A DNA stretch of 64,000 nt from Blautia glucerasea (GTDB taxonomy: Bacteria > Bacillota > Clostridia > Lachnospirales > Lachnospiraceae), in assembly GCF_013304385.1 (NCBI RefSeq), contig NZ_JAAITU010000013.1, forward strand, positions 1 through 64,000. The letters run 5' to 3'. The stretch's first letter is position 1. The number at the start of each line of letters is the position of its first letter. Below, piece after piece: positions 43,400-62,258 of the stretch. The translations under genes and the position numbers were made by a program. The notes under the pieces were generated by a model that saw nothing but the letters and a program-made list of their open reading frames with translations, did no database searches and was not told the origin of the DNA.

Positions 43400-44053
43400 A
43401 TGAAGCAGACACAGGAAAAAGAGAAAAATTCTCTTGGACATAAGATACTTACAGGCATTGGCATTATATTATGCGTGATCTTGATTCCTATATTGGTGAT
43501 CAACTGTACACTGATCATCAAAAGTTATACGAATAAAGATCAGGTTCCCAGTATCAGCGGGATTTTTCCTATGATAATACTTACTGACAGTATGTATCCG
43601 GAGTTTGAATCCGTCGATCTGATCATTTGCAATACAGCTGAGCCGGAGGAAATTAAGGTCGGTGATGTGATCTGTTTTTATGATCCGGCAGGAAATGGCA
43701 CTGCCACAGTTACCCATCGTGTTCAGGAAGTTGTTACAGATGATGAAGGCAATCTGGCATGGATCACCAAGGGTGATGCCAATAATACAGAGGATCTGCC
43801 TACCGTTCCAGCAAAAAATCTGATCGGTGTATATAAGACCCGCTTGAAAGGACTTGGCAATGTGGCCGTGTTCATGCAGACTACCCAGGGCCTGATCATT
43901 TGTGTGATCTGCCCGATCATCTTTCTGGTGGCTTATGATGTGATTCGTCGCCGGGCATATGAAAAGTCCAAGAAGAAGGATACAGACGCACTTCTTGCTG
44001 AGTTGGAAGCACTTCGTGCGGAAAAAGAGAAAAACAATTCAAAGGATATTTGA
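43400..44053 (+). CDS. sipW: SipW-type signal peptidase I, copy 1
   Basis: Archaeal/ER-type (Ser-His) signal peptidase. ATG 43400 follows AGGGAGG and is chosen over ATG 43367. The 217-residue protein has an N-terminal membrane segment (about 15-40, GIGIILCVILIPILVINC), the nucleophile serine in LTDSMYPEF (about 61-69), histidine in VTHRVQEV (about 103), KGDANNTED (about 123) and a C-terminal membrane segment (about 160-185). SipW processes TasA-like matrix proteins in Bacillus; the substrates here are the downstream genes. First gene of the surface-fibre locus. Confidence 0.88.
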   Translation: MKQTQEKEKNSLGHKILTGIGIILCVILIPILVINCTLIIKSYTNKDQVPSISGIFPMIILTDSMYPEFESVDLIICNTAEPEEIKVGDVICFYDPAGNGTATVTHRVQEVVTDDEGNLAWITKGDANNTEDLPTVPAKNLIGVYKTRLKGLGNVAVFMQTTQGLIICVICPIIFLVAYDVIRRRAYEKSKKKDTDALLAELEALRAEKEKNNSKDI

Positions 44054-44222
44054 TTCCGGGATGCCACATCGGAATTAGATATAAATTAAATCCTGTTCCG
44101 GAAGGTGAGGAATGGTCTTGACCGTTCCGGCATTATCGGAATGGCGAACCGCCTGTTCTGTGGAACGGCGAGGAGCATTCCTGACAACCGGGAACGCGAG
44201 AAAGAAGGGAGAAAAAAGAACT
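44054..44222 (+). promoter_or_regulatory. structured leader upstream of the first TasA-like gene
   Basis: A 169-base non-coding stretch dense in TTCC/GGAA pairs. Hairpins: TTCCG/CGGAA (44054-44074), and CCGTTCC (44122-44128) that can pair either with GGAATGG upstream (44109-44115) or with CGGAATGG downstream (44137-44144). These two stems exclude one another, as in attenuators. No T run follows. Confidence 0.55.
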
Positions 44223-44867
44223 ATGAGAAAAAACAAAATGATGCGTGCTGCATCCGGTCTTCTGGTTGCAGTTCTTCTGAGCACATGTGCAATCTCCGGT
44301 ACTTTTGCGAAGTATACTACTTCTGTAAGCAGTAGTGACAAAGCAAGGGTTGCAACTTGGGGCTTTACTCAGACGTCCATTAGCCTTACAGATTTGTTCA
44401 AGACAACATATGATAAAAATGTGCTGGGTACTGCTGACGTGATTGCACCAGGTACAACAAATTCAGCAACATTTACATTTAAATATGATGGACAGGAAAC
44501 AGCTCCAGAAGTTGCATACACTTTTAAAGTAGACACCACTGGAAGTACAATTGCTGAAGATATTAAGAACAATCCCAATATTGTATGGCAATTAGACAAT
44601 GGACCAGAGGGAGATTGGGATACATTGCTTGCCAATATTAAGAATTTGTCAGGTGATGCTACTGGAGAAAAGACATATCAGCCTGGACAGCTGCCAACTG
44701 GTTTTACAGCTGCTGATGATGTACATACAATTACATGGAATTGGAAGTTTGAGACAGAAGGAACTGGCATGAATGCTCAGGATGTAAAAGATACCGCTAT
44801 GGGCAACAAGGTTAAACTTGATGAAGTTACCCTGAAGATCACCGTTACTGCAACCCAGATCGACTAA
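44223..44867 (+). CDS. TasA/CotN-like SipW-dependent secreted protein 1
   Basis: ATG 44223 with AAGGGAG upstream; 214 residues. The N-terminus has a basic region, hydrophobic core (LLVAVLLSTCAIS) and the SipW-type cleavage context GTFAKYTTSVSSSDKARVA (about 26-44). The mature part (about 29-214) is T/D-rich, a predicted beta-sandwich typical of TasA/camelysin-like matrix subunits, containing APGTTNSATFTFKYDGQETAPEV. No cysteines after the signal. It lies directly after SipW copy 1, suggesting that peptidase-substrate pairing. Confidence 0.8.
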   Translation: MRKNKMMRAASGLLVAVLLSTCAISGTFAKYTTSVSSSDKARVATWGFTQTSISLTDLFKTTYDKNVLGTADVIAPGTTNSATFTFKYDGQETAPEVAYTFKVDTTGSTIAEDIKNNPNIVWQLDNGPEGDWDTLLANIKNLSGDATGEKTYQPGQLPTGFTAADDVHTITWNWKFETEGTGMNAQDVKDTAMGNKVKLDEVTLKITVTATQID

Positions 44868-44907
44868 TCCATCTGCCTGCATTAGTAACAATGCGAAAGT
44901 GATTCCT

Positions 44908-44956
44908 ACCAGAGAATCCTCTTCCCAGTGGCAGGGAAGAGGGGCTTCTGGTTTTT
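44908..44956 (+). terminator. terminator after TasA-like gene 1
   Basis: ACCAGAGAATCCTCTTCCC (44908-44926) pairs with GGGAAGAGG...TTCTGGT (44934-44951) and is followed by TTTTTC. A strong stop here would uncouple SipW1-TasA1 from the genes downstream unless read-through occurs. Confidence 0.85.
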
Positions 44957-44998
44957 CAAAGAAGGAGAGACATCTGCTTTTTTGAAAAGCCAAAAGCT

Positions 44999-45090
44999 AC
45001 AGGAAAGAGAATAGATAACATAGCAGATAACACATAACAGATAATAACAGATACCATACAGAAGCAGCAATAAATCTGAAATAATAACAG
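44999..45090 (+). repeat. degenerate ATAACA-type short repeats
   Basis: In the gap before the next gene, GATAACA/ATAACAG motifs recur about seven times with irregular spacing. AT-rich, no ORF. Possibly slippage-derived or part of a promoter region for the second transcript. Confidence 0.5.
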
Positions 45091-45131
45091 AAACCACATA
45101 GAATGATCCGGGAACAGGAGGAAGGGACAAT

Positions 45132-46139
45132 ATGCCGGAGAGACAATTACAGAGAATAAAATTACATAATCAGGAGCGAATCCTCTGGCCTGCAGTTATT
45201 TTACTGGCAGTGATGGTGATCGCCACAGCAGCTCTGGTTGGCACCTATCTATTTCCTTTTATCAGAAAGAGCGATTGTGAGATCAGCCTGTACCAAGGAC
45301 AGACTTATTCTGAAAAGCAGCAGCTGTCAAAGAATAAAGCAACCACAGGCAGCAGTACCGGAACTTCATCTGGCAGTATGACCGGCAGCGGTGCAGGAAC
45401 GACTGTGGGAAATACCACTACAGGGAGCACATCTGCAGGCAATAACTCTACCGGCAGCACAGCAGGCAATGCAAATGCTGGTCTTCAGGTTTCAGATGAC
45501 CAACAGATCTGGAGCACGGATACCTCCATTGATCTTTTTCATATCCGATATACCAATGGATACGGAGAGATTTCTGTGCAAGGGGAAAACGGTGATAAGA
45601 TCGTAGCACCTGGTACAGATGGACAATATACCTTTTCCCTGAAAAACACAGGGAGCAAAGAAGCTGACTATAAGGTCTGGATAGAGGCAGGTACAAGCTC
45701 AGGAGATATAGATTTTCCGGTGCTTACAAAAATGAAGAATACAGACGGATGGCTTCTTGGAAGTGATGATACATGGGAAAATGCAGAAGACCTGAACGGT
45801 GTATCTGCCCAGGGACAGATGGAAGCTGGGAAAAGCCAGGATTACACCATTTACTGGCAGTGGCCGTTTGAGCAGGAGGAAGATGAAAGGGATACAGCTC
45901 TTGGAAATCTTAATGATGGACAGAAACTTACCTATACAGTTACCATCCACACACAGGTTTCTATGGATACAGACAGCGGCGCAGCAGACAGAAGCCAGGG
46001 CACAGCCATAAACTCAGTTAAGACAGGCGACTATACACCGGTTATAAGGTGGATCCTGATCCTGACGGCAGCTGCAGCAGTGTTTGGCATGGGATTGTAC
46101 TTTATATATAAAAGGAAGAAAGAACAGGACAGATCATGA
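45132..46139 (+). CDS. membrane-anchored TasA-locus protein with S/T/G linker and sorting-like tail
   Basis: 335 residues. An N-terminal signal-anchor (about 19-41), an S/T/G/N-rich low-complexity linker (about 60-115) and a beta-rich ectodomain (about 120-285) with FSLKNTGSKEADYKVWIEAG, as in TasA/camelysin-type domains. The C-terminus is SVKTGD, a hydrophobic segment (about 306-325) and YKRKKEQDRS. This has the layout of a sortase signal, but with SVKTG instead of LPxTG. Preceded by GGAGGAAGGGA; overlaps the next gene by ATGA. It may anchor the fibre to the cell. Confidence 0.7.
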   Translation: MPERQLQRIKLHNQERILWPAVILLAVMVIATAALVGTYLFPFIRKSDCEISLYQGQTYSEKQQLSKNKATTGSSTGTSSGSMTGSGAGTTVGNTTTGSTSAGNNSTGSTAGNANAGLQVSDDQQIWSTDTSIDLFHIRYTNGYGEISVQGENGDKIVAPGTDGQYTFSLKNTGSKEADYKVWIEAGTSSGDIDFPVLTKMKNTDGWLLGSDDTWENAEDLNGVSAQGQMEAGKSQDYTIYWQWPFEQEEDERDTALGNLNDGQKLTYTVTIHTQVSMDTDSGAADRSQGTAINSVKTGDYTPVIRWILILTAAAAVFGMGLYFIYKRKKEQDRS

Positions 46140-46780
46140 AAAATGCAAAAAGAAAGACAAGTCCGGTTCTGAGAAGGATCCTGCTTGCGGTGATTGGTCT
46201 GATCCTGGGAGTGAATGTGTATTTTGCAAATGCATCCGGGATCGGAGGCAATCATCTGCCAATGCCCTTTGGCTATGGGATCGCCAATGTGCTTTCTGGC
46301 AGTATGGAACCTACGTTTTCCAAAGGAGCCTTGCTTTTAGTAAAAGAAGAAAAACAGACAGAACCAGGACAGATCGTTGTATATCAGTCAGGTCAGGAGC
46401 TGATCGTCCATCGTGTGATCCGGATCGAGGGAAATCTGGTGACTACAAAGGGCGATGCCAATGAAGCTGCAGATCCGGTTTTTGATGCAAGCCAGATCAA
46501 AGGAGTGGTGGTGGGCTGGATCCCCTTTCTTGGAAGCTTGGTCAGTTTTTTGAAAACACCGGTGGGGATCATTTTGCTGCTGATATGTGCAGTGCTCTTG
46601 ATGGAAGGCTCTTTCAGAAAGCAGAAGGTATCAGATGACCGACAGCTGGAAGGAATCAAGGAAGAGATCCGCAGGCTGAAAGAAGAGATGAACCAGGGCG
46701 AAACAATAAAGACAGAGAACACACAGGAATCCAAGAACAGAAAGGAGAGAGAAGATGGAGAAGGAAAACAGAATCAGTAG
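46136..46780 (+). CDS. sipW: SipW-type signal peptidase I, copy 2
   Basis: A second archaeal/ER-type peptidase, 214 residues, distinct from copy 1. N-terminal membrane segment (about 12-30), serine in LSGSMEPTFSKG (about 53-64), histidine in IVHRVIRIEG (about 92-101) and KGDANEAADP (about 106-115). A C-terminal membrane segment (about 140-160) is followed by an acidic K/E coiled tail. Starts on the ATGA of the preceding gene and overlaps the next start by 26 bp, so the three are translationally linked. Confidence 0.88.
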   Translation: MKNAKRKTSPVLRRILLAVIGLILGVNVYFANASGIGGNHLPMPFGYGIANVLSGSMEPTFSKGALLLVKEEKQTEPGQIVVYQSGQELIVHRVIRIEGNLVTTKGDANEAADPVFDASQIKGVVVGWIPFLGSLVSFLKTPVGIILLLICAVLLMEGSFRKQKVSDDRQLEGIKEEIRRLKEEMNQGETIKTENTQESKNRKEREDGEGKQNQ

Positions 46781-47333
46781 CCGGATCTATCAGGCTGTGG
46801 CAGTACTTTTGTGTCTGGTCATGCTTTCTCTCTGGATGCTGGGAAATGTATATGCCAGGTATACAACGGAAAGTTCCGGAGGCGATACCGCCAGGGTGGC
46901 GGCTTTTGTGTTTCAGCTTGCAGATGGCAATGGGAGCCAGATGATCGATCTGAAAAAAGTGCAAAAGCCAGGAGATACCTGTGAATACCATTTTACAGTA
47001 AGTAACGAGAAAGACAGCAAAGTGAATGAGGTCACTACGGAATATACCATCGGGCTGGAGCTGACAGGCAGCATGCCCCTTGAATGCAAAGTAACAGAAG
47101 TGGATCCTGAAGAATCCGGGATCAGCAAAGAAATGTGCAAGGTAAAAAGTTTTGGGGACCATGCAGTTCTGGTTCAGGAATCAGCTGCAGTTACCTTTGC
47201 ACCGGCAGAAGCGTTGGAAAAGAATTATGTGTTAAGTGTAAGCTGGCCCAGTAAAGAAGCAGATGCAAAATACGCAAATACAAGCGGTACATCCTTGCTT
47301 GTATTAAATGTGAATGCAAAGCAGACAGACTAG
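46755..47333 (+). CDS. TasA-like SipW-dependent secreted protein 2
   Basis: 192 residues. Basic start, hydrophobic core (AVAVLLCLVMLSLWML, about 14-29) and the SipW-type context VYARYTTESSGGDTARVAAF (about 32-51), matching the KYTTS...ARVA pattern of protein 1. The mature region is a predicted beta-sandwich with a single EC and MC cysteine pair, possibly disulfide bonded. Overlaps the upstream peptidase gene, and so is its likely substrate. Confidence 0.78.
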   Translation: MEKENRISSRIYQAVAVLLCLVMLSLWMLGNVYARYTTESSGGDTARVAAFVFQLADGNGSQMIDLKKVQKPGDTCEYHFTVSNEKDSKVNEVTTEYTIGLELTGSMPLECKVTEVDPEESGISKEMCKVKSFGDHAVLVQESAAVTFAPAEALEKNYVLSVSWPSKEADAKYANTSGTSLLVLNVNAKQTD

Positions 47334-47355
47334 AAGAGAGCGGTGAAGATTCAAA

Positions 47356-48147
47356 ATGATGAAAAGAGAGATCAATACAAGCCGGACAGGCAATCATAAG
47401 AAAAGAAACAGATTCGGGAAGAAATGGCTGTGGCTGTTCCTTCTATTGGTTCTTGTGGGTATTCTGGCAGGAGGGGTTCTGGCCAGATACCGAGCAGATA
47501 ATCAGAAACAGGAAGAAATGAAGTCATCCGATTTTCATATAACCTCCGATCTTTTGGAAGAAGAAGGAGCCTTCTATGATGTAACAGACTGGAGATCCGG
47601 AATTGACATTCTTCTATATAATTACGAAAAAGAGAATGTTGCCCTTATTGCAGGGGACGACATCAGCTATACAGTAAACGTGGATGGAAAATGGGTATGT
47701 AGTGATCCTAATAAAGGCGTTTTCAAAAAGAGTAAAGACCGCACATCCCAGACCATTCATCTTACTCCTGGTACAGATGTAAAGAAGGGTGATAAAGTAA
47801 CCATTACTGTAAATGTTACAGCACCTTATAAGAAAACACTTTCAGCTACTTTTAAGGTCGTATCGGAGGGCATCCCATCTTATACAGTAAAGGATCAGTC
47901 AGATGGATCTGTACTTCTTACCATCTTGACCAATGACTACAGTGGAAATATTACAGTCAAATGGCAGACCGGGCAGCTGGATCCTGACAGCACCAACCAA
48001 GATATGGCAAATTGGTCAGATGCATCCGGACAGGGGATTCTTAAAGCAGAAGATAATACTACATATCAATTGCTGTTTTTCAAGAATATTACAGATAACT
48101 TTACAGAACGATCCGGCATGGGGACTGAGATCAATCTGACAAAATAA
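47356..48147 (+). CDS. TasA-locus SipW-type secreted protein 3
   Basis: 263 residues. Very basic N-terminus (about 1-24), a hydrophobic core (LWLFLLLVLVGILAGGVL, about 25-42) and ARYRADNQKQEEMKSSDFH (about 43-61), recalling the AKYTT/ARYTT cleavage context of the other two, with less similarity. The mature part is beta-rich, with immunoglobulin-like stretches (KKGDKVTITVNVTAPYKKTL, about 140-160). AAAGAG-type RBS is weak. Directly precedes the giant gene and probably shares its transcript. Confidence 0.68.
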   Translation: MMKREINTSRTGNHKKRNRFGKKWLWLFLLLVLVGILAGGVLARYRADNQKQEEMKSSDFHITSDLLEEEGAFYDVTDWRSGIDILLYNYEKENVALIAGDDISYTVNVDGKWVCSDPNKGVFKKSKDRTSQTIHLTPGTDVKKGDKVTITVNVTAPYKKTLSATFKVVSEGIPSYTVKDQSDGSVLLTILTNDYSGNITVKWQTGQLDPDSTNQDMANWSDASGQGILKAEDNTTYQLLFFKNITDNFTERSGMGTEINLTK

Positions 48148-48165
48148 AACGAGGAGGGAAAAGGC

Positions 48166-51100
48166 TTGAACAGAAAAGACAGAAAAATGAACAAATTAAT
48201 AAGTATCCTCCTCGCATTTGCAATGATCATGCAGAGTGTTTCAGGAACGGTTGTACTGGCTGATGATACCCAGCCGGAAGTCCTGGAAAGTACTCAGGTC
48301 ATGGATGTGGAAGATACAGAAGAACCGGAGGAGGTACAGCTGCCTCAGGAAGAACAGCCCCAGGAAACTGAGGGGCAGGATGCGTCTGCAAAAGAAGAGA
48401 CAGATGCTTCTGCATCCGGGGAAACAGAGATATCTGGAGAAACCGAAATATCTGGAAAAACACCGATTTCCCAGGAAACACAGATAGCAGAAGAAGGCCA
48501 GACAGAGGAGATTTTTACAGATCATCCAATGGCTGATCCGATGCCTGCTGCAGAGGAAGGACTTACAGAAATTAATTTAAGTACAGTATCTGTGGAACAG
48601 GTTTATCTTCTCACCAATGCACAGTTTGTTTCTACTTCTGCAGGCGACATTTTGACAGGCACTGGAAACGGATACCGCCTTACCGGAAGCGGACAGGATG
48701 CAGGTACAAGAACCGTTTATGTGGGTGACAACACATACAATGGAAATCCTTATTCCGGACAGCAGGATATTTCCGTGGACCTTGCTGGTACAGGAAGTGA
48801 ACTGTCTGTTTTGCAGATCAATCCCATTGCAAAAGGAGATGGGGGATTTGGCTCCGTCAGGCTTTCAGTAAGTAAAAGCTCCAGGATCGGCACTTTAAAA
48901 CTGATGGAAAATGCACAGGCTGTGTTGACCCTTTCTGATGTTTTGGAGATCGGGAATATGGAACTGGCAGCAGGCAGCAGTCTGACTATCCAGGCTGGCA
49001 GCTATTCATTTACTGTAACAGGAAGTACCACAGGCAGCGGATCCATTGCCCTTTTTGGAAGCAGCCTGGTATTTCATGATCTGGATGCCGGCTCCATTAC
49101 ACTGGATAATGCAGTAATGGATGCCTCAGACTGCAAAGTGGCAGCAACAGACCATCTGATTGTAAATAGCAGTACAGTGCAGAACGCCTCTCTTCTTGGA
49201 TTTGAAGAAGATGTAACCGGTGCAAAGACTGTGTCCTTTACAGGAAGCGGAAATGCACTTCATAATATAGGAGCTGTTGGAACTACTGAAAATGGAACAG
49301 CCAATGTGTCCATCACAGGTGCAGAGACAATTTCCAATGCTTCTGATACTAATTTTATCTGTGATTATGGAATTACTTATTTACATGATAAGGCTGAGCT
49401 TACAAAGGAAGACACATGGCCGGATACCTATCGTGTAAAGTATACCGGAACCATCAGCGGCACAGGAGAGATGATCGGATTTCACCAGGCATCCGGTACT
49501 TATGTTGGGACAGCAGATCAGATCCAGCTGCCTGTATATGTACAGAAAGGCTATACCTGCAAAGGCTGGACCTGCGGAGAGGATAGTACAGTTAATACGG
49601 TGCTACCTGCCGGATATGCCAGCAACCTTACCTTAAATGCAAAGATGGAACCAGCATCGGTAACAGTAAGTGTAGACCTGGGCTATATTCCGGATGAAAA
49701 CAGCAATGATGACTACCAGACCCTGAATCAAGTGACTACATATGAGAATCGTGTCTGGGGAGATGTGTTAGCACTACCTGCACCTTATCGGTTTGGATAC
49801 AAGTTCCAGGGATGGAAGATCCTGCCTGGTGATGAAAACAGTGCACTTATTAAGGACAGTTATACAGTATCTTTGGAGGATGCTACAGAATCGGAAGATG
49901 GTACTTTTTCTATAGCGCTTACGGCCGTATGGACAGCAGATCACTTTCCTATAAGATTCCTGATCTCCAGTAATGTAGATCTGACCAAACTGAAGGTTCA
50001 GACAGATGATACTACAATTTATGATTCGGTTTCTGCTTTTGCACAATCCAATTCATATGTGATTTGGGATGAGGCCAATCATCTGCTGCAATTTGACGAT
50101 TTTGTATATGGGGAAAAGCTGTCCGATTATCTTGCGGGAATCGGTCTTTCACAGCTGCCGATATTATTGGATCAGAGGGAAGGAGCAGAGAAACAGGAGT
50201 TTGCAGGCTGGTCTACACCTTCAGGAGCAATGCTTTTAGAAGACATGACCTTCTCTGCGGGAAGCATCCTGGATAATAAAGGAGAAGGGGAGTCCCTTGC
50301 TCACTATGAAGCCAAGATCATAAGTACCCCGATACTGCTTACAAGCTTATGGGGAACCGGCCAGTATAAGCTGACTGTGGATGTGGTTGATGGATGGGAG
50401 CTTCTGGTGAATGGTCAGGTTCAGACACCTAATGGCTCTGAAAAGACCATGACCATTTCTGTTACAACCGGCAGTGAACTGGTTTGGAGATGCAGCGCGA
50501 CAAATCCGCTGAATTTCTGCAGGTGGACATTTACGGAAGGCTTTTTGCCAGAGGAAACCACCTATGATTCAGGTGCCAGTTATCTCACATGGAAGGCTGT
50601 GATGCCTTACAGAAATATTAAGGCAAGCTATACGTCTGATCTTTCCTCTTTATATGTGGATCTGTCTGTAAGCAAGATCACTTTTGAAGAGAAGGTGACG
50701 ATGCCTAATGGCCGTACAGTGGATGGCTTCTGGTATACGCAGGTGATGACCCCTTCTGAATATGATGGCATGAAAGTAAATGCCTTAAGCCCTGCATTTC
50801 AGGCAGACGCTTCTTATGCAGGCCATCAGGACGAGTATTTCTATGTCTGGGATTATACAGATTCATTCTGTATTACAAGTAAAAATAAGGAAACTCAGAA
50901 TCAGCTGACTCTTGTATCAGCCATGACCATTACCCTGAAAGACTGTAAGATGATTGCCACAGATGCTTACAGGGATCAGGCAGCAGGAACAAAGCTGGGC
51001 GGGATCGAACTGGAGAATCTGTCTGACGATCAGGGAAAAAGTATGAGTCAGACTCTTGCAAATACAGATCTTACCCAGTATGCCAATGTGGTTCTGGATA

Positions 51101-54100
51101 CAGATAAAACCAATCAGTATACGGTTTATTTGAATCTGAAAGGCGATAACAATGTGATCGCTGATATTTCCACTTCAGGATTTCATGCGGAGGCAAAATT
51201 CGGAGGAACCGTCTATGTACAGGGAATTGATACTGGAAACAGTAAAGCTGTACTGGGAACGATTTTCGGCGATTTTAGCTGCACGATTCAGAAGCTGGAC
51301 GTAACTGCTTATGAGAAGGAAAATCCATTTCGTTATCTTACCTATACCTCACGGGTTGGATCGGTGAATTTCAACCAATCCAGTATTCAGGCAAAAGACA
51401 GGACTATATTCACCTACAGCATGTATATGAACGTGGCAGACAGTCAGTTATATGTAAGAGAAGCACGTGGATATTATTATGGCATAAACATAAGCGGTGC
51501 CAGCTATGCTCACATTTATGGGGATGTTTTGTCCAACCGTCACTCCATGTCTGTTAAGGGTTCTTCTTCTGTGGTTATTGATGGAAACGTATTGACCACA
51601 AATCAGGATCAGTATGCTTCCGGTGATATTAATACCAGTGGATATGTGATCGTAAAGGGTACCGTGTATGATGCATCCAATACCAGATTCACCAATGGAA
51701 CAGTAATTTGTAATACACTGATCGTTGGTTCTTATATTACCACAAATGGATCTGCACGGCTGGTCACCAACCTGATCACCACCAATACCTATTCAAACAT
51801 CCGATATGATAAAGAGACAAGCAGGTATTATCCATCTCTAAACAGTAGTGATAGTCGTATTTATTCTATTGCACAGGCAAATCAGAACGAGGATGATTAT
51901 CCCTTCAGGGTATTCTCTTCCAGTGTTGCTACCACAAGAACCTATAGTTTTGGAGGAGCCTCTACCAGGATTTATCTGTTCGGTTATTATAAAACCACAG
52001 CTGTAGGCGGAGTGGATTATTACAATCTCTCTATTACATCTATGGATCAGGAGAACCCGGTTCGGGAGTATGTGCTTCAGTGCCTGGATGACAATGGGGA
52101 TTTGAGATCTCAGGTTTCACTTGATGATACGGCTTTGCAAAATGGGGTAAAAGCAGCTTCCGGTTATGCAAACAATGAATGTGTGATGCTTGGAAACAGT
52201 ACTTATATACCAGGCACAAACACACCAAGGTTTGTTGCTTTTTCCGGGGCACAGGTTTATGCAGCCGGCAATCTTACATTCTTTAATGAAACCACAGTAT
52301 CTGATGGCTTGATCTGGTGCGACGGAAGCTTTGGTACAAAAAGTGATCTTACAGTTTCAGGCGGACAGGTAACGGCAAAAACCGTAGGAAATGTGTATCA
52401 TCTGAATACGGTTTATGCAGACGGCACCAGGCGCTGGAAAAAAACACTTATTACCGGCGGTACCGTGAATGCAGATGAGATCGGAGCAAGAGCCAGCCAT
52501 GGAACGAAAGGAAGCATTCAGCGAAGCCTGGTAGAAATCACCGGTGGCACGATCCAGGGTAAAACAACCCAGGGCACAACAACTGTTCAAAGTGATGAAT
52601 ATATTAATTATATTTATGATAATACAGATTTTCCAGAGGCTTCCAATAGATTTGCATCCATGCCGGATAATGTTCGTTTAGCTGCACAGGATACGGATGG
52701 AACTACAAAAAGCTGGCTCACAGATCCGATCAGCTTTAAACCGCCAGTTGCAGCCGATGGAACTACAGGATCCTGGCAATTTGGTTCTCTTTCCGGACCA
52801 GAGACAACAGGCATTGATGCAGATGGATTTTTACTTCCTGAAAGCACTAATATTAATGTTAGTCAGAAAGATCAGCTTCTGTTATATGCTGCAAAAGATA
52901 AGTATAATCTGACTAAGGTTTATGGTACAGATCTGTATACTTTGACGGCGAAAGGTGATGATGCTGTATTTACATCTAATACCATGACGGATATTTCAAA
53001 TCTGCAGCAGATTGAAGTAAAGACGGCATCAGTATCCGGAGGCACTGAGATCACCCTTACGGTACAGTCTGAGCTATATCGTACACGGACTGTGGTGTGG
53101 TATATTGATGGAAATGGCCAGTATCACAATGCACTTGCAGGAAAAAACTGGCAGGGGAACAGTATCACCTTTGATATGCCAAAGGGAAATACCTATATCT
53201 ATGTGGTGGATGATGTACATGCCCTACCATTGGATCTATGGGTCAGCAGCTACAGCTTTGACAGCAATGGATTTGTAACTCAGCTTGTGGATGTAGACAG
53301 TTCCGGAAAACTGACTGCCACGGATGCGGATAAAAGATTTACTTATTCCGGAAATTATAGGATCGTGCAGTCTAATCTGAAAAATGACCAGATAAAAGAT
53401 CCTGATAAGGCAGCTCTTACGGGTGTAAATGCAGCAGATATGACAGGCAATCGGATCCGTTTTGCATCAGATTTTAATAATCAGACCATTTCCGATAATC
53501 AGATCATATTGTCCAGGATCTATCAAAAATGTCAGGACGATCAGTTTGGAGTTTTGGTGGAAGGCTCATCAGATGGAAGCCAGGGTGGAAATGTAAAGCT
53601 TCAGTTGGATGGGAAAATTGCTCTTTTCCGTTTCAAGCTGAAAGATCCTTCTTCCCTTACGCTTGCCGGGATGAATGGCACAGGTAAAGATGTGCTGTAT
53701 TTTAACCGTGCACAGACCAATTCGCCTTCTGATTATTTGATCAATGCCGGGACGATCGCAGGAAAACCTGGAAATCTGACACTTGAGGATCTTAAGCTTA
53801 ATTATAAATCCGGTTATGGTGGATATCTGCTGTATGGAACACAAAAAGGCGGTTCCCTTACCACAAAAGACTGTACGTTCTACAGTAAAGCATGGGGAGA
53901 CAGCACCGGGTTTGCAAGGAAGGTTGAAGACATAAAGATCCAGGGAAGTAACATTGATATTACCACCGGATATTCCTATACCACTGAATTGTTTTCCGGT
54001 TGTGGGAATGTGACAGTCAGTGATAATAGTAAGATTCAGTGGAAATCCATTGGAAGTGAAAGTACTGGAGGTTATCCTTTTGATTATGGAATTAGCGGCA

Positions 54101-57100
54101 CCTTAACGGTTGACGATTCGGAAATTGTTACGAATTTTGAGCCATCAGCTGACACAAGAACCCATACCATCAATGATTACGAAACAAGTAAGGCCAAAGA
54201 AGTGATTCTTAAAAACGGCGCTAAGTATACGGCAGACAGTCGCCTTTGGTTTACCAAGGTACAGGTTCTTACGAATGCTGTTTTAACAGTAAAGTCTTTC
54301 GGAAGTGAAGAAAGCTATTTCTTTTCCAAGGATATTCTGGTGGATGGCGGTACCGTTAAAGCAGATTATGTAGTTGTCAGTGGATTCTATTCGCCTCAAA
54401 GCAGCGGCTCTTCTTACTGTGCTTCCACAAAGGCTGTACTGGATCAAAGAATCAGTAAGCAGACCAACGTAATCAATGGAAATGATTTCCCTGGCCTTGT
54501 GATCAAGTCTGGTACTGTAAATGCCAGGAAATTTGCAGGTGGTGACTGGAACGGAAAGGTTACAGTATCCGGTGGAACGTTAAATACGGCAGCAGTAGGT
54601 ACATCCGGTTATTTGTACGGCTTTATACAGCAGCTTCCTGCAAACAAGCTGGACTACGTATATAAGTATCCCATCTATGATTACAGCAATTATCAACAGT
54701 CTTCTGCAGTAACCATAAATGGTGGCACTGTGAATATTGAAGATGGAGGCTATTTGGGCGGCGCCAATACCACGGTTCAGTTTTCTGGCGGACAGGTGAA
54801 TCTGGGAGAAAATGCTGTGCTTGGTATGAACCAGTCGCAGACAAAGGCTCTTTCCGATTATTACTCAGCAAAAGGGGATAGTATTAGAAATCACGTACCT
54901 GCAAGCAAACTCCAGATCGCAGGAGGCAGCGTAGCTATGGCAGATGCTGCTGCCACAGGCAGTATATGTGCGCCCTATGGTCAGATCCAGATTTCAGGCA
55001 ATGACACCAGCATTAAAACCGCTAAGATCAGTGCAGACTATGGGACTGTTGAGATTAAAGAAGCTAAGAATGCATTTGATAATCCATATCAGGGCAATGA
55101 GCCAAGTAGATACAAAAGCAGTTATATTGGTGTGTGGGTAACAGATTCTCTGTCAGCCCAGAACCTGACTATTACAGAGGGAGCCCAGGTCTATGCACCA
55201 AATGCTTATGCTCAGATTACAGATGGACAGGGACGGCTGAGGGTTCAGGAGGCAGGCCTTTATTCTGCAGCTTATGGGGAAAAAGGTATTTCTAGAGCTG
55301 AGGATGACAAGCAGTACAATGACAGATCCGGTGCTAAGGATCAGACCGTATTTGGCACCCATCTTGTATCTATTACATATGTGCTGAATCCACAGGGAAT
55401 CCTTCTGGATGCTGATGAAAAGCTTGTGAATAATGAAAATCCTGAGAACTATACATCCACTGCAACAGATCAGCAGCTTCCTCTTAAGGACGGGTTCTGT
55501 GAAGGCTATTATTTCAGAGGCTGGTACAACAATCCGGAGTGTACAGGAAGTCCTTCCACCCAGGTTAATACTACAGTTGCAAATGACTTTACCCTGTATG
55601 CAAAGTGGGAAAAGGTCAAGGTGAAATTCCAGCTGAGGATGGATGAGAGCAGTGCTGCCGGGTATTATAATGAAGCAGAATTTGCAGGCAACAGTCATTG
55701 GCAAAAGGCAGAGGACGGCAATTCCTATGTGTCTTCTGAAATGGCTTATGTTACATATGGGGACAGGATCCTTACCGCCTCCGGTGTAAACCTGATTAAT
55801 TATTCCACCAATACCCTTGGCGTGACGGAGGTGAAGATCCAGGAGGACGGCTACACAGGAGATAAGTCCATTAGTGCCATCAGCACTGTGACAAAGGCAC
55901 TGGCAGAATATTACAAAACAAAGGATACAAACGGGGATGGCACGGCAGTGATCATTCTTCATGTACATTTGGTACAGAAGAGATATGCAACGGTGATCTT
56001 CGATCTGAATCAGAAAAACGGCAGACCTGTGGATGCATCATTTACTACAGGGGTTTCTGCTATCCGGGAAAATGTTGGAGTAGATAAAACACTTGGAACA
56101 ATTCCGGCGTTTACAGATGCAAGTGTAACACAAGGAAACAGTGAAGGTCTGGTACAGGCAGCATCCAAAGGCTATACCTTCTTTGGCTGGAATACAGATA
56201 AAGATGCTACAAAGGACAGCGCTGAGGGATGGGTAAATAAAGACAGCATTTTCACTGCCAATACTACCATCTATGCCATCTGGCAGGTGAATACCTATAA
56301 GGTACAGTTTTTAGCAGGAGAGGGCAGCTGGGTTACTGCAGGTCAGCAGGCACCATCTGCAGGTCAGCCACCAATCACTTCGCTGGAATGCTACTGGGTA
56401 TATGATACGCCGGTAACAGAGGCAAACAGCTTCTGGTATCAAGATGCACAGGGAAATCGTTACATGACAGAACTTCCTTATGCATGGAAAGAAGGAAGCA
56501 CCTTTGATAATGAAAACGGATGGTTTTATTCGTATAAAGAGAATGGAACAACTGTAAAAGAAAAGATTTCTTCTGCCCAGGCCTTAAGTGCACTGCTGAT
56601 CCGCACTCTGGATGTAACTCTTGGTTCTCCGGACGGAACCCCGGATCAGATAGCGCTAAGCGTTACAGCGGAATATACGCCGGTAAATGTAACCTATGAC
56701 CTGAATGGCGGACACTGGACAGACAATACACAGGCAAGTACCCAGAATCCGGCATACGGAGCTCCTCTTGCCGGTTATCATACAGAAGCAGCAGATAACA
56801 CTACACAGGTGCTGGAAAGTACTACCGGTGAGAATGGGATTACTTATCGTGTACTTGGAACTACAGCAGCATATTACAATACTAACAAGCAGTATGCAGC
56901 TGCAGACTACAGAACACTGCTTTCCAGAAAGGGCTATACCTTCCTTGGATGGTACACCAGCCTGGAAGATGCTGCAAAAGCAGAGGCAAACCCTTCCAAA
57001 GTATCTTCTGTAGGAACAACGCCAAGGTTTACAGATGTGAATCTGTATGCTGCATGGAAAGCCAATACCTATCAGGTGGATCTGTACAGCAAGGATACCA

Positions 57101-60100
57101 GCAAAACCTATCATTACACCTACTTTAATCGGGTGAATCCTGTAACAAGGATATCCGTAACCGTTGGCCAGACCATAGATTCTAGTATCTGGCCCAGCAG
57201 GGACGGAAACTGGTATGCATATAACAGCAGCACAACAGGAACACCGGAGGAAAACGCCAAAAGATTTTTCCTGGGAGGAACCTTTGCCGCACTGGATCCT
57301 GGAACTACAGACCAGGCAATTGCTGCAGGGTATAAAACCTATCAGAATTATGCAGAGGCTGTAACTGCAATATCCAATAGCGGAACCCTGTACCAGGCAG
57401 GAAGTTCTTTGTTCTTCCTGCCTGAGGATGATGCTTATTCCAAAGACATTGCCGCAAATTATGGAAGCAGTTATTCTGTGCCGGATTATCCGGACGGATC
57501 CACTATTTCCATGTACGCAGTTTACAGGGAAAGATCCCTTGTATTCGTGGAACGATATATTGATCCTGCCGGCCAGGAACAGCAGACCATCAAATACAGC
57601 GGTCCCTGGAATGTATGGTCTGATTATCCTACAAAGTACGGTACTGCAGGAAATTCACAAGTGACAAAACAGGGATACTCCCTTGTTGGTTGGTATGTAA
57701 ACGGTCCTACTACAACTGCAGAAATATATCCTTCCACAAAAGAAGAGTACGATGCTAAAAGTGAGTCCTTTAAACAAGTAGCTAAGCAGCTTGGAACCTA
57801 CGACATTATGGTTTACACTGTCTATGCAGCACAGGTAAACAGGAATGTGACCATGAATTCTAAAACAGATCCGGTTACTTCAGATCTGACAGTGGATTCC
57901 TATACACTGCCTGCAAGTATGCAAAATGGCAGAGTTACCATGAGCCTGACCATGGGATCGGCTGCACTTCAGCTGGTATCCAAAGAAGTGATGGAAGCCC
58001 ATGCTTATGACCGCACCTGGACAACCGATGGCAAGCAGTACAGCGCAGAGAATACAGCGGCACTGCTTGTGACCCTTAGTAAAGGTACAGACACAAAGAC
58101 TCTGGATCTGTCAAAAGCAGTAAATGGCACCCTGGACTTTGAAAAAGAAATCGAAGCAGGATGGCAGGTTACTCTGACCCTATATCACTCAAAGGTGATA
58201 TCTGCAGATCATACCTACATCTTTGATCTTAAGATGAACTTTGCAAGCAGCGGATCCGGCGAAAACACGCTGAAGGATCAGTTCATCAATAACCATGTAT
58301 CTGTACGGCTTCAGCCAACTATTTATACGGTGAATTATTCTGTACAGCTTCCGGAAAAAGCAGGACTGCTTACGATAGGAAGCTGGGGAGACTTTACACA
58401 GCCGGATGATACAGATGCAGTGGAAGTGACCAGACAGGTGAAACAGGCATACGGAAGCGACCTGATCAGCAATCTGATCCAGATCGAAGGCTATAAGCCT
58501 GCATCTGATCTGTGGATCTATGGGAATGGTACGACTGCTTACAAAAAAGCAGATATGCAGGTGTCTGCAGCAAATAACGGCCAGATCGATGTAGCGCTTT
58601 CTTATCAGGCAAAGACCTGGCGCTTGACAGCAGATGCAGATACCTTAAAATACTGGACCATTACATACGGTGACGGTGTAGGAAGCAACGCTATGACAGA
58701 ACTTACCAGTGCAGGCGCTGATGTGAAATATCACTCTGATATTCACTTTACACCAAAGGGCACTGGCTATGATTTCGCACCGGAATTTGTAACGATTACC
58801 CGTACACCGGATGGCCAGGGCAGCTTGCAGTATAAGCTTCCTGATTATGCACAGAAAGCAGCAGATGGAAGCAGCTATGGGGTGCAGATGAATGCAGCAG
58901 CCCTTGATGCCACTTATGTAACCGTGATGACCATGTATTTGGAAGAAGGAACCATTACCCTTGCACCGGATAAATATACCCAGGAAAGAGCCGAGGGCAC
59001 AGTGACAAAGACCTGGCCGGGCACTTATGTGGTTCTCCAGAACAGGCAGAACAGCGGAGCAAATGCAACAGCAAACCGTCTGATCATTGATGGAAATCTG
59101 GAGGGCAGGGAGATTGCTCTTGGAAACCTGAATATCAGCTCCAATAATTCTGTGGAACTGAAAACAAATACAAAAGCAGCCCTTACACTGGACTATGATG
59201 GACAGGCATCTGCCCTTACAGGAAAGAATATTCTGGTACCTGGTGGCTCTGTTGTACAGCTGAAAGGAAGTAGTACAGCTCACGGAACCATTACATTAAC
59301 ACCAGGGGTTGGTGATGCGGCCATTGGAGGCACAGCAGCACAGCCGGCAAACGGAAGGATTGCCTTGACCGATCTGGATATATCCTTAAATATGCCAGCA
59401 GGCTCTTCTGCCTCCGGCATCGGTGCAGCCTCTGATGGAACAGGTGCAGGAAACATCAGTATTACTGACTGTACCATGAAAGTAAAGGAAGGCTCTGATA
59501 CGGATGTTTACTCCGGCGCATGGATCGGCGGCAAGGATGTACATATGGTGGATCTGAAAAATGTTACACTGTCAAAGATTGAAACCACTCATATGGCAGG
59601 CCCATCCATTACAAAAGGAAAGCATGTTACCATTGATTCCTGTAAGCTTGGAAGCGCAGACAGCAGTCTGACAGATCCGGTTTACGGAGAAGATATACTG
59701 ACGATCACAAATTCTGAGATCTACCTGAACCTTCAGGATAATATTTCAGGAAAAGAAATATCTGCACCTGTGGGAAGCAGCAGTACTGGCAGCGTAACAG
59801 TGACCGATTCAAAAGTAAAAGCAATCTGCACCGGTCATGGTATTAATGGTATTTCTGATCTGTATACCGGCATCCTGTACATAAAGGATGCAGTGTCAGA
59901 CGTAAATGTGGATGGTACCCAGATCCTGGAAATGACCAACGGATCCGTCACGATAGACGGAAACAGCTACACTCAGGCAGAAAATTCTCATGCTGCCGAC
60001 AATGCAAGAAAAGATTATCTGCTGATCCAGGAAGGCACAAAGACTGCTGCACCTGATCTTACTGTTTCGCAGATCACCAGTACCCTGGAAGTGCGGACAC

Positions 60101-62229
60101 CGAAAAATACAGCAAACACATCTGTGGATGTTGGGGATCTTGCAATTAACACAGATACACAGCTTCAGCTAAAAGGCATGCTCACTGTAAGCAAAACAGC
60201 AACAGTGTCAGCTAATACTGCAATCACAGCAACCGCTGATGCTGATGCAGGCATCACCTTTACAGGTGGGAACACCATATTTGCAAATGCAGATGGTTCT
60301 TCTTATACACAGGAAGGCGGTGTATTAAAAGCAAGTGGTGCACCTGCTGCAACAGGAGACTTTGGTGACGGAACTATGGATATCACCCTGAAAGGTGTAA
60401 CCACAACCGTAACGAACCTGTATGCAAATGACCTGACCATTCAGGGCGGCAGCGTGGCAGCTTCCACAGGCAGTATTGGAAGCAAGCCAGCACACGGCCA
60501 GGTGACTACAGTAACCCTGACAGGTACTACAGTCACCGCATCAAAGATCGGTGCACTTGGAGCTTATGGAGATACCTTCACTAAAGTGACAGAGACAAAC
60601 AGCAGCTTGTCCGGCACTCTTGTACAGGATCATTACAGGATCACCTATGATGTAAAGGGGACAGGATTTAATACAGACAAACTTGAAAAAGTACTCCGCA
60701 CGGAACAGAATTATACGGAAGGTGGCGCTGTAGGCGCAATCACCATCACACCAGTTGATGGTGTACCTGGAAAACCGGAAAATGATAAGTCAAATATTTT
60801 TGCCGGCTGGTATATCAACCAGAATGGAAAGCGTACTGCCCTTGTAAAAGAAGGGGAACCACTTCCGGCAGGACTTACTGACAGCACAACTCTTTTAGGA
60901 ACAACCATTAACAAAGCGGACACAAAGGATGTTTCTGATAATGCAGATGGCACAAAAACACTGACTGTACATGTATGGCTACTGGCAACAGGAACCACAT
61001 CCATAAAAGAAGGCCGTGTATTTGCAGACTTTACAGATGGGAAAGCATTTGTAAACATCCAGACCAATCAGGCTTGGACTACGCGTCTTACAAGCACAGG
61101 CACATCCATCCAGGGACGAGATTACATGGCATCATTCAGTTCGGCTCTTCCGGCAGGAACAAAGCTGACACTCACTGTTCCAAAGACAGCGGACAGTGCA
61201 GGACAGTATTACTACTACACAGTTCCTGATGGCGGCATATCCAGCGTAAAGTTCTCACAGTTTACTGTGATGGGCGGAACCACAAAATTCCAGACCAAGG
61301 TTTACACTGACAATGCACCTGAACAGGAAGTATTCCTTCTGTCCGCAGACTTTGCCGGAACAAAGATTACGCAAAACAGCAGCAGAAACGTAACATTCAC
61401 CCTGCTTCCAGACTCTGAAGGAACATCATCCATCAACATGGGAACAAAGGTAAGCTACAGCTACACCTCTGTAACACAAGGCACTGTAACAGCTAGGGTG
61501 GACAGTGCTGGCGGCCGGACAACGATTAAGGCAAGTGTTAGTGTGTTGCCCGCTGATTCGGCAAACCTGACAGGACAGAACCTGTACCTGATGGCAGAAC
61601 TGAAAACAGAAAGCGGAGGAGATGTATCCGTATCCTACAGGACAAAAGCCAAATGGAACCAACTGGAAGGCATATGGATCAGCAAAGACAAAGTGCTGTT
61701 CCCTGTATCAGAAGCCACAAGTAGTCAGACAGTGACCTTTACAGACCTGCCTGGCGGAACCTACACCATAAAATGGTGTCTTGTATACGGCAAGGACCCA
61801 AGAGGAAACATCGCAGGAAACAAAGTCAGCAACACAGCAAGCATTACATACACCAACACCGTTCTCGCAGACCGGCCACTGCTGGATGTAGTACTGAATC
61901 CTAAAGTTGACTCCTACGTGATCCCACAAGGCACCCAGACGAAGCTTCAGTTCCACCTGGAAACATCCTGCAATCAAAGTGAGACAGACAAAGTAGTTTC
62001 AATCACTATTGAAAAGCAGGGTACACTGTGTAACTTTACACCTGTTGATAAAGACAGCACTGACTTTGTGGTATGGGAAGGTACACTTACCCATCAGGCA
62101 ACTACATCTATAAGAGAGGATGCTGTTACATTCACATCAGCTGTTGCAGCAGGAACCTACAGGATCTGCTTCTCCATGGATCCTGACTCAACAGAAGACA
62201 ATGTATACTTTACATTTATTGTAAAATAA
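48166..62229 (+). CDS. giant secreted surface protein with InlB/Flg_new-type repeats (4687 aa), TTG start
   Basis: A 14-kb open frame. TTG 48166 follows GAGGAGGG at ideal distance; ATG 48187 is the alternative. Signal peptide about 8-32 (LLAFAMIMQSVSGTVVLA). Residues 33-130 are an acidic E/P/Q/T linker with short ISGETE-type repeats. From about 130 onward it alternates long parallel-beta-helix-like tracts (recurring SGGTVN, NGGTVN, SGGQVN turns, about 1430-2210; GGSV and GAAS-type turns, about 3620-4140) with List-Bact/Flg_new-type beta-grasp repeats of the form GY-x-F-x-GW ending in YA-x-W (about 460, 545, 680, 2450, 2670, 2925, 3170, 4210). Residues about 4290-4687 form beta-sandwich-like segments. 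There is no LPxTG, SLH, LysM or choline-binding module and no C-terminal membrane segment; the chain ends FTFIVK. It probably works as an adhesin or matrix scaffold outside the cell. The domain family is clear, the biological target is not. Confidence 0.85.
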   Translation: MNRKDRKMNKLISILLAFAMIMQSVSGTVVLADDTQPEVLESTQVMDVEDTEEPEEVQLPQEEQPQETEGQDASAKEETDASASGETEISGETEISGKTPISQETQIAEEGQTEEIFTDHPMADPMPAAEEGLTEINLSTVSVEQVYLLTNAQFVSTSAGDILTGTGNGYRLTGSGQDAGTRTVYVGDNTYNGNPYSGQQDISVDLAGTGSELSVLQINPIAKGDGGFGSVRLSVSKSSRIGTLKLMENAQAVLTLSDVLEIGNMELAAGSSLTIQAGSYSFTVTGSTTGSGSIALFGSSLVFHDLDAGSITLDNAVMDASDCKVAATDHLIVNSSTVQNASLLGFEEDVTGAKTVSFTGSGNALHNIGAVGTTENGTANVSITGAETISNASDTNFICDYGITYLHDKAELTKEDTWPDTYRVKYTGTISGTGEMIGFHQASGTYVGTADQIQLPVYVQKGYTCKGWTCGEDSTVNTVLPAGYASNLTLNAKMEPASVTVSVDLGYIPDENSNDDYQTLNQVTTYENRVWGDVLALPAPYRFGYKFQGWKILPGDENSALIKDSYTVSLEDATESEDGTFSIALTAVWTADHFPIRFLISSNVDLTKLKVQTDDTTIYDSVSAFAQSNSYVIWDEANHLLQFDDFVYGEKLSDYLAGIGLSQLPILLDQREGAEKQEFAGWSTPSGAMLLEDMTFSAGSILDNKGEGESLAHYEAKIISTPILLTSLWGTGQYKLTVDVVDGWELLVNGQVQTPNGSEKTMTISVTTGSELVWRCSATNPLNFCRWTFTEGFLPEETTYDSGASYLTWKAVMPYRNIKASYTSDLSSLYVDLSVSKITFEEKVTMPNGRTVDGFWYTQVMTPSEYDGMKVNALSPAFQADASYAGHQDEYFYVWDYTDSFCITSKNKETQNQLTLVSAMTITLKDCKMIATDAYRDQAAGTKLGGIELENLSDDQGKSMSQTLANTDLTQYANVVLDTDKTNQYTVYLNLKGDNNVIADISTSGFHAEAKFGGTVYVQGIDTGNSKAVLGTIFGDFSCTIQKLDVTAYEKENPFRYLTYTSRVGSVNFNQSSIQAKDRTIFTYSMYMNVADSQLYVREARGYYYGINISGASYAHIYGDVLSNRHSMSVKGSSSVVIDGNVLTTNQDQYASGDINTSGYVIVKGTVYDASNTRFTNGTVICNTLIVGSYITTNGSARLVTNLITTNTYSNIRYDKETSRYYPSLNSSDSRIYSIAQANQNEDDYPFRVFSSSVATTRTYSFGGASTRIYLFGYYKTTAVGGVDYYNLSITSMDQENPVREYVLQCLDDNGDLRSQVSLDDTALQNGVKAASGYANNECVMLGNSTYIPGTNTPRFVAFSGAQVYAAGNLTFFNETTVSDGLIWCDGSFGTKSDLTVSGGQVTAKTVGNVYHLNTVYADGTRRWKKTLITGGTVNADEIGARASHGTKGSIQRSLVEITGGTIQGKTTQGTTTVQSDEYINYIYDNTDFPEASNRFASMPDNVRLAAQDTDGTTKSWLTDPISFKPPVAADGTTGSWQFGSLSGPETTGIDADGFLLPESTNINVSQKDQLLLYAAKDKYNLTKVYGTDLYTLTAKGDDAVFTSNTMTDISNLQQIEVKTASVSGGTEITLTVQSELYRTRTVVWYIDGNGQYHNALAGKNWQGNSITFDMPKGNTYIYVVDDVHALPLDLWVSSYSFDSNGFVTQLVDVDSSGKLTATDADKRFTYSGNYRIVQSNLKNDQIKDPDKAALTGVNAADMTGNRIRFASDFNNQTISDNQIILSRIYQKCQDDQFGVLVEGSSDGSQGGNVKLQLDGKIALFRFKLKDPSSLTLAGMNGTGKDVLYFNRAQTNSPSDYLINAGTIAGKPGNLTLEDLKLNYKSGYGGYLLYGTQKGGSLTTKDCTFYSKAWGDSTGFARKVEDIKIQGSNIDITTGYSYTTELFSGCGNVTVSDNSKIQWKSIGSESTGGYPFDYGISGTLTVDDSEIVTNFEPSADTRTHTINDYETSKAKEVILKNGAKYTADSRLWFTKVQVLTNAVLTVKSFGSEESYFFSKDILVDGGTVKADYVVVSGFYSPQSSGSSYCASTKAVLDQRISKQTNVINGNDFPGLVIKSGTVNARKFAGGDWNGKVTVSGGTLNTAAVGTSGYLYGFIQQLPANKLDYVYKYPIYDYSNYQQSSAVTINGGTVNIEDGGYLGGANTTVQFSGGQVNLGENAVLGMNQSQTKALSDYYSAKGDSIRNHVPASKLQIAGGSVAMADAAATGSICAPYGQIQISGNDTSIKTAKISADYGTVEIKEAKNAFDNPYQGNEPSRYKSSYIGVWVTDSLSAQNLTITEGAQVYAPNAYAQITDGQGRLRVQEAGLYSAAYGEKGISRAEDDKQYNDRSGAKDQTVFGTHLVSITYVLNPQGILLDADEKLVNNENPENYTSTATDQQLPLKDGFCEGYYFRGWYNNPECTGSPSTQVNTTVANDFTLYAKWEKVKVKFQLRMDESSAAGYYNEAEFAGNSHWQKAEDGNSYVSSEMAYVTYGDRILTASGVNLINYSTNTLGVTEVKIQEDGYTGDKSISAISTVTKALAEYYKTKDTNGDGTAVIILHVHLVQKRYATVIFDLNQKNGRPVDASFTTGVSAIRENVGVDKTLGTIPAFTDASVTQGNSEGLVQAASKGYTFFGWNTDKDATKDSAEGWVNKDSIFTANTTIYAIWQVNTYKVQFLAGEGSWVTAGQQAPSAGQPPITSLECYWVYDTPVTEANSFWYQDAQGNRYMTELPYAWKEGSTFDNENGWFYSYKENGTTVKEKISSAQALSALLIRTLDVTLGSPDGTPDQIALSVTAEYTPVNVTYDLNGGHWTDNTQASTQNPAYGAPLAGYHTEAADNTTQVLESTTGENGITYRVLGTTAAYYNTNKQYAAADYRTLLSRKGYTFLGWYTSLEDAAKAEANPSKVSSVGTTPRFTDVNLYAAWKANTYQVDLYSKDTSKTYHYTYFNRVNPVTRISVTVGQTIDSSIWPSRDGNWYAYNSSTTGTPEENAKRFFLGGTFAALDPGTTDQAIAAGYKTYQNYAEAVTAISNSGTLYQAGSSLFFLPEDDAYSKDIAANYGSSYSVPDYPDGSTISMYAVYRERSLVFVERYIDPAGQEQQTIKYSGPWNVWSDYPTKYGTAGNSQVTKQGYSLVGWYVNGPTTTAEIYPSTKEEYDAKSESFKQVAKQLGTYDIMVYTVYAAQVNRNVTMNSKTDPVTSDLTVDSYTLPASMQNGRVTMSLTMGSAALQLVSKEVMEAHAYDRTWTTDGKQYSAENTAALLVTLSKGTDTKTLDLSKAVNGTLDFEKEIEAGWQVTLTLYHSKVISADHTYIFDLKMNFASSGSGENTLKDQFINNHVSVRLQPTIYTVNYSVQLPEKAGLLTIGSWGDFTQPDDTDAVEVTRQVKQAYGSDLISNLIQIEGYKPASDLWIYGNGTTAYKKADMQVSAANNGQIDVALSYQAKTWRLTADADTLKYWTITYGDGVGSNAMTELTSAGADVKYHSDIHFTPKGTGYDFAPEFVTITRTPDGQGSLQYKLPDYAQKAADGSSYGVQMNAAALDATYVTVMTMYLEEGTITLAPDKYTQERAEGTVTKTWPGTYVVLQNRQNSGANATANRLIIDGNLEGREIALGNLNISSNNSVELKTNTKAALTLDYDGQASALTGKNILVPGGSVVQLKGSSTAHGTITLTPGVGDAAIGGTAAQPANGRIALTDLDISLNMPAGSSASGIGAASDGTGAGNISITDCTMKVKEGSDTDVYSGAWIGGKDVHMVDLKNVTLSKIETTHMAGPSITKGKHVTIDSCKLGSADSSLTDPVYGEDILTITNSEIYLNLQDNISGKEISAPVGSSSTGSVTVTDSKVKAICTGHGINGISDLYTGILYIKDAVSDVNVDGTQILEMTNGSVTIDGNSYTQAENSHAADNARKDYLLIQEGTKTAAPDLTVSQITSTLEVRTPKNTANTSVDVGDLAINTDTQLQLKGMLTVSKTATVSANTAITATADADAGITFTGGNTIFANADGSSYTQEGGVLKASGAPAATGDFGDGTMDITLKGVTTTVTNLYANDLTIQGGSVAASTGSIGSKPAHGQVTTVTLTGTTVTASKIGALGAYGDTFTKVTETNSSLSGTLVQDHYRITYDVKGTGFNTDKLEKVLRTEQNYTEGGAVGAITITPVDGVPGKPENDKSNIFAGWYINQNGKRTALVKEGEPLPAGLTDSTTLLGTTINKADTKDVSDNADGTKTLTVHVWLLATGTTSIKEGRVFADFTDGKAFVNIQTNQAWTTRLTSTGTSIQGRDYMASFSSALPAGTKLTLTVPKTADSAGQYYYYTVPDGGISSVKFSQFTVMGGTTKFQTKVYTDNAPEQEVFLLSADFAGTKITQNSSRNVTFTLLPDSEGTSSINMGTKVSYSYTSVTQGTVTARVDSAGGRTTIKASVSVLPADSANLTGQNLYLMAELKTESGGDVSVSYRTKAKWNQLEGIWISKDKVLFPVSEATSSQTVTFTDLPGGTYTIKWCLVYGKDPRGNIAGNKVSNTASITYTNTVLADRPLLDVVLNPKVDSYVIPQGTQTKLQFHLETSCNQSETDKVVSITIEKQGTLCNFTPVDKDSTDFVVWEGTLTHQATTSIREDAVTFTSAVAAGTYRICFSMDPDSTEDNVYFTFIVK

Positions 62230-62258
62230 GATTTTGATGTTAAAACACCAAACGAAAT

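Follow-up and report, generated by a model that had tools for sequence, protein, structure and literature searches.

A probable mobile gene cassette for a surface fibre processed by SipW and displaying a giant exoprotein

Gene content of the locus

The window analyzed here comprises the first 64,000 nucleotides of contig NZ_JAAITU010000013.1 of Blautia glucerasea, part of a 3.99-Mb draft genome with the MAG RUG154 as a close relative. Its positions 43400-62229 hold seven genes on the forward strand, SipW1, tas1, anc, SipW2, p5, p6 and giant (Table 1), and most of their starts are preceded by a ribosome-binding site. A sequence-only reading of this DNA had proposed the same gene content, and every gene proved to lie on one strand and where that reading had placed it. 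No riboswitch or other credible RNA family was found in positions 40000-64000.

Table 1. Coordinates of the genes and other features of the inserted block
Feature	Position	Strand	Description
SipW1	43400..44053	+	ER/archaeal-type signal peptidase; TIGR02228; orthologue in each complete cassette
tas1	44223..44867 (ATG at 44223)	+	TasA-like secreted protein, probable major fibre subunit; AKY box
Hairpin and TTTTT after tas1	44908..44952	+	Probable partial terminator setting the subunit ratio; z -4.5
anc	45132..46139	+	Signal-anchor, Ser/Thr-rich linker, TasA-like domain, KTGD-TM-KRKK tail; probable fibre base
SipW2	46136..46780	+	Second ER/archaeal-type signal peptidase; TIGR02228; own orthologue clade
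p5	46755..47333	+	TasA-like secreted protein, probable minor subunit; profile match
p6	47356..48147	+	SipW-type N-terminus, two Ig-like domains; probable giant adaptor; directly upstream of giant
giant	48166..62229	+	Secreted protein of 4687 aa; ordinary signal peptide, InlB-type repeats, conserved C-terminal domain (~61000-62226)
GC-rich hairpin and TTTT	62256..62300	+	Probable operon terminator; read by eye
Inserted island, ~19.2 kb	43105..62350 (edges approximate)		Between prs and a DUF512 gene; TTG[A/T]TTTTTG at both edges

SipW1 and SipW2 score 96.8 and 76.2 bits, respectively, against TIGR02228, above its cut-off of 51.85, which bears out their earlier assignment as archaeal/ER-type signal peptidases (at 43400 and 46136). 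Against the Bacillus-type SipW model NF046067 they reach 76.9 and 78.4 bits, below its curated 190-bit cut-off, and the two proteins share about 27% identity. SipW1 has two transmembrane helices and a cytosolic coiled-coil tail. As judged by sequence only, both peptidases have a catalytic Ser-His pair instead of Ser-Lys: the Ser/His motifs are DSMYP and THRV in SipW1, and SGSMEP and VHRV in SipW2, where S56 and H92 are invariant across four orthologues. The doubling of the peptidase, singled out by the sequence-only reading, recurs in six two-SipW cassettes, yet the second enzyme is not essential: SipW2 is absent from three cassettes (G230, G551 and G446), and because all three retain p5, p6 and giant, it is dispensable to the design. 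SipW2 and p5 are joined in a single frame of 550 codons in Adlercreutzia ZJ141 (L040:8225-9877), a possible peptidase-substrate polyprotein, although p5 may have an internal start.

The giant begins at a TTG codon behind the ribosome-binding site gaggagg and carries three Listeria-Bacteroides (InlB-type) repeats (PF09479, E 3.7e-17), in agreement with the 14-kb giant secreted protein with InlB repeats described at the outset. The giant frame of Adlercreutzia ZJ141, of 4776 codons, has 33% identity to it over 3386 aligned positions.

Recurrence, insertion and transfer of the cassette

Profiles of p6 and of the giant's C-terminal domain were searched in 299 genomes of the family, and the p6 profile only in 199 genomes of the order of Adlercreutzia and 398 of the phylum; in high-GC loci with overlapping open reading frames, SipW1 and SipW2 were annotated on all frames. 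The cassette is present in 16 genomes from Lachnospiraceae, Eggerthellales and, in one case, another family, and all accepted matches to either profile proved to be this same cassette. Weak p6 matches in G335, G334 and G321 and C-terminal-domain matches in G199 and G363 were rejected as false, with no cassette there. Wherever contigs allow, p5 and p6 stand directly before a large exoprotein gene, with SipW upstream. The full order SipW1-tas1-anc-SipW2-p5-p6-giant is found in the window, G054, Adlercreutzia ZJ141, G246, G462 and G947; the G237 cassette is without anc, and that of G022 is divided between contigs. In a short subtype (G263, G106, G305, G161 and G279), one SipW lies beside an operon of p5-like, p6 and giant genes, with a tas1-like gene in most members; G263 has another SipW at a greater distance upstream.

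Recurrence of these genes in one and the same order across 16 genomes puts the pattern far beyond chance. The sequence-only reading had taken the genes, giant included, as a single system and had set conservation of gene order across relatives as its test beforehand, and that order is conserved. In G246 and G279, moreover, the cassette was predicted from the giant's C-terminal domain alone and the remaining genes were then found there, a forward test of the link between giant and cassette.

Two side observations concern the short subtype. A gene for a membrane protein that begins with MNA[FY]F[FN]YFY precedes the cassette in G279, G106 and G305 (L160:7978-9672, L061:16149-17708 and L099:5644-7215), and this protein and a second neighbouring gene may be part of the short-subtype system. 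The giants of G305, G161 and G279 end in TVTKLKTD[LM], and the next gene encodes a membrane protein of about 515-526 residues (L098:5767-7347, L096:6031-7578 and L095:4695-6245).

In all nine congeners whose site could be read, the genes that flank the block, prs and the DUF512 gene, are direct neighbours; the eight empty sites measured show a distance of about 141-228 bp from one match to the next. The window has this congener intergenic sequence in two pieces, the left one ending near 43109 and the right one beginning near 62349, and the island edges carry TTGATTTTTG and TTGTTTTTTG, one at each edge. The adjacency in the nine congeners identifies the block as a clean insertion of about 19.2 kb. 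In G022 the giant adjoins DUF512; in G054 the prs-DUF512 site is empty and the cassette is located elsewhere. No integrase or transposase was seen inside the island. The direct repeats TTG[A/T]TTTTTG at its edges (~43101-43120 and ~62340-62360) have CCTGAAA/TTTCAGG just inside them, a possible 7-bp inverted repeat that may be due to chance. Promoter inversion upstream of SipW1 was also considered and rejected, as the inverted repeats there (79-93%) look like chance.

In phylogenetic trees, Adlercreutzia ZJ141 groups with the window type (supports of 98/100 for SipW1, 96/97 for p6 and 100/99 for SipW2), and the other three Eggerthellales cassettes group with that of the Lachnospiraceae genome G230 (90/94 for SipW1 and 94/96 for p6); some rows have long branches, and resolution is poor in the p5 tree. 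These groupings suggest that whole cassettes crossed phyla, and transfer between Bacillota and Actinomycetota, in either direction, is the simplest reading of the trees.

Relationship of the small proteins to TasA

Standard models say little about the small proteins: Pfam and NCBIfam name none of tas1, p5 and p6, all three of which stay below TasA-family cut-offs, and the TasA/camelysin model PF12389 matches no window protein at E up to 1 and, among 14 tas1/p5 members, a single one (E 0.09). Profile-based sequence searches of the PDB returned no relative, and scans of viral contigs returned none for anc or tas1. Comparison of the tas1/p5 profile with a single TasA sequence (its mature part identical to PDB 8aur) was weak, at probability 14, so a comparison of family against family was needed. 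The mature p5 profile, without signal peptide, matches a profile of TasA and 14 Clostridia camelysin-type proteins with probability 91 and E 1.1e-6, scoring 44.5, where the highest score among 100 column shuffles was 19.7 and reversal of the profile left no match. The alignment covers the final two strands and closes with A-x-Q, which TasA has as well. Taken by itself, the profile of mature tas1 has no significant match to TasA; tas1 is clearly related to p5, matching its profile at E 1.8e-17 with the signal peptide included. The protein between the peptidases had been described simply as anchored, a description we correct here: anc carries a TasA-like domain, which matches the tas1/p5 profile at E 1.1e-14 with no signal peptide involved. 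Together, these comparisons support tas1, p5 and one domain of anc as remote TasA/camelysin relatives, p5 at the profile level and tas1 and anc indirectly, via tas1/p5.

Three TasA-like small proteins had been proposed, and this holds for tas1 and p5 in the body of the protein; p6 shares only the SipW-type signal and mature start. Mature p6 has no significant profile match to TasA-like domains, and its resemblance to the family is confined to the signal and early mature sequence. A structural model of p6 (pLDDT 63) matched many unrelated Ig-type chains, the best at Z 6.9, within typical background; TasA was not among these matches, which carries no weight either way. With modest confidence, p6 looks like two Ig-like domains. 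AlphaFold gave pLDDT 38 for tas1 with five alignment rows.

The description of anc as a membrane protein with a sorting-like tail stands as to its two hydrophobic helices (residues 17-35 and 307-325) and its VKTGD-TM-KRKK tail, and falls short at the LPXTG-type sortase anchor model PF00746, where the tail scores 10.5 bits (E 0.63) against a cut-off of 20. The K/QTGD-TM tail is found in three long-subtype A anc members only.

The N-termini in the window read AKYTTS..ARVA in tas1, ARYTTE..ARVA in p5 and ARYRAD in p6, the same motifs in which a similar cleavage context had been noticed before. An A-[KR]-[YF] box stands right after the hydrophobic core, at the signal peptide end, in all p5 proteins of the two long subtypes and in tas1 (10/10); 14 of the 15 p6 members, across all subtypes, have it as well, the remaining one reading SRY. 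It is absent at the corresponding place in 9 anc proteins and 8 giants, and tas1-like and some p5-like proteins of the short subtype are without it. In tas1, p5 and p6 the box reads as a SipW-type cleavage site with an aromatic P2' residue as in the TasA/camelysin family. An aromatic second mature residue is reported to make TasA a poor LepB and natural SipW substrate (PMC10269814). TasA assembles by a donor strand that includes Phe29 (PMC9674648), and the aromatic of the box corresponds by position to this residue. Given the distribution of the box and its aromatic residue, tas1, p5 and p6 look SipW-processed and strand-donating, anc probably stays in the membrane, and the giant would use the general secretion route.

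A model for fibre assembly and display of the giant

The B. subtilis tapA-sipW-tasA operon has three genes and one peptidase and, to our knowledge, includes no TasA-domain membrane anchor, p6 or giant. The cassette resembles it in its SipW-type peptidase, TasA-family subunits, aromatic mature position 2 and separate minor subunit (PMC9674648, PMC10151520). The sipW-bsaABCRSD operon of C. perfringens is alike in layout: in the accessible text of its description, SipW adjoins a SipW-dependent, filament-forming secreted protein, a terminator stands right after the major subunit gene, and further secreted proteins lie downstream, whereas the operon has one SipW and an internal two-component system and no giant is described there (PMC7395162). 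The TasA/CalY/CapP system of B. cereus likewise forms a sortase-independent filament from several subunit types with an accessory protein; its CapP is a chaperone-like polymerisation regulator, however, and the accessible text describes no pair like p6 and giant (PMC13082335). Camelysin/M73-type operons of Clostridia also have SipW next to a number of small secreted proteins with an A-[WYF] box, sometimes with an anchored protein, but their box is A-W-F or A-Y-x and their bodies match the M73 model; the operons we looked at showed neither p6 nor the conserved C-terminal domain of the giant. The genome of the window itself has a second, classical camelysin-type operon (contig C87, ~96261-103698; L035:4261-11698), which encodes four small proteins bearing an A-Y/F box, one anchored protein, the third SipW of this genome and a secreted protein of 1018 residues, and the Clostridia genome G967 has an unusual expansion of 13 camelysin-model matches.

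A stable hairpin lies 3' of tas1 in all seven cassettes tested (z -4.5 in the window and -2.8 to -7.3 in the six others), and the hairpins of the window and G054 have the loop AGTGGCA in common and run into TTTTT. In C. perfringens, a terminator behind bsaA is reported to give rise to a transcript of sipW-bsaA, with read-through into the remaining genes (PMC7395162). By this analogy, the conserved hairpin suggests that tas1 is the major subunit.

Starting from a conserved and cleanly inserted unit with remote TasA homology, restricted SipW-type boxes and a C-terminal domain common to its giants, we consider it reasonably probable that the block has been transferred horizontally as a self-contained cassette and that it encodes a surface fibre, processed by SipW, on which the giant exoprotein is displayed. 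By analogy, it would work like the TasA and BsaA fibre operons, to which it adds a base in the membrane, another peptidase, a candidate adaptor and the giant. SipW1 and SipW2 would cleave tas1, p5 and p6 at the conserved A|[KR]-[YF] site, and the N-terminal strand set free would have its aromatic at the place of the donor-strand Phe29 of TasA. Since a hairpin follows its gene, tas1 would be made in excess, and it may polymerise by donor-strand exchange; anc, its N-terminus held in the membrane, would offer its TasA-like domain as the fibre base, and p5 would be a minor subunit. We propose that p6, entering the fibre by way of its N-terminal strand, holds the giant at its C-terminal domain; the giant would leave the cell by its ordinary signal peptide and act as an adhesive or matrix part.

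This docking and the role of the giant are suggested by the invariant adjacency of the two genes and by a fusion: every continuous locus has p6 directly before giant, and G237 encodes a single protein of 883 residues that joins p6 to the C-terminal domain and lacks the giant's middle (L063:8497-11148). It is conceivable, though unlikely, that the small proteins form a TasA-type fibre and the giant is only co-regulated with them, acting separately and not bound to the fibre. In favour of this, the giant lacks a SipW-type box and carries an ordinary signal peptide of its own, and its central part differs among cassettes, the same-genus G054 giant matching that of the window near the C-terminus only. 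Conservation of the C-terminal domain in the giants of all subtypes, though the remainder is not conserved, argues against such separation, as do the adjacency and fusion with p6. We also regard as improbable a block that is mainly a display machine for the giant, in which tas1, p5, p6 and anc make a short membrane stalk or complex and no long fibre. It would fit the N-terminal membrane anchor that anc keeps in the long-subtype cassettes examined, and a long fibre is itself something we infer; the conserved tas1 hairpin, by contrast, fits an excess of one subunit, like that of the filament-forming BsaA of C. perfringens (PMC7395162). That two independent SipW operons came to lie side by side by chance next to an unrelated giant gene, as the two peptidases and the 265-bp gap after tas1 with its terminator-like hairpin might suggest, is very improbable and already contradicted by the recurrence of the whole order in distant genomes and the insertion and transfer of the block as one unit.

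More tentatively, the fibre-displayed giant may typify a class of donor-strand fibres, SipW-dependent and transferable, that occurs in gut Lachnospiraceae and Eggerthellales, with giants made interchangeable by a dedicated adaptor, p6, and a conserved C-terminal docking domain; it is quite possible, if somewhat doubtful, that these Gram-positive bacteria have a form of surface display that swaps its giant cargo without sortase-made pili. We found no such cassette in the open-licence literature, where SipW is mentioned in passing with Lachnospiraceae and not with Eggerthella. Most of what is known of TasA-type fibres comes from Bacillus and from a few biofilms of Clostridium, and our analysis points to the cassette as an undescribed variant of this kind of biofilm fibre. 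With its naturally empty sites, it is a clean genetic unit useful for testing fibre function. If our reading is true, it would be an unrecognised surface organelle for these lineages, one that moves whole between Bacillota and Actinomycetota.
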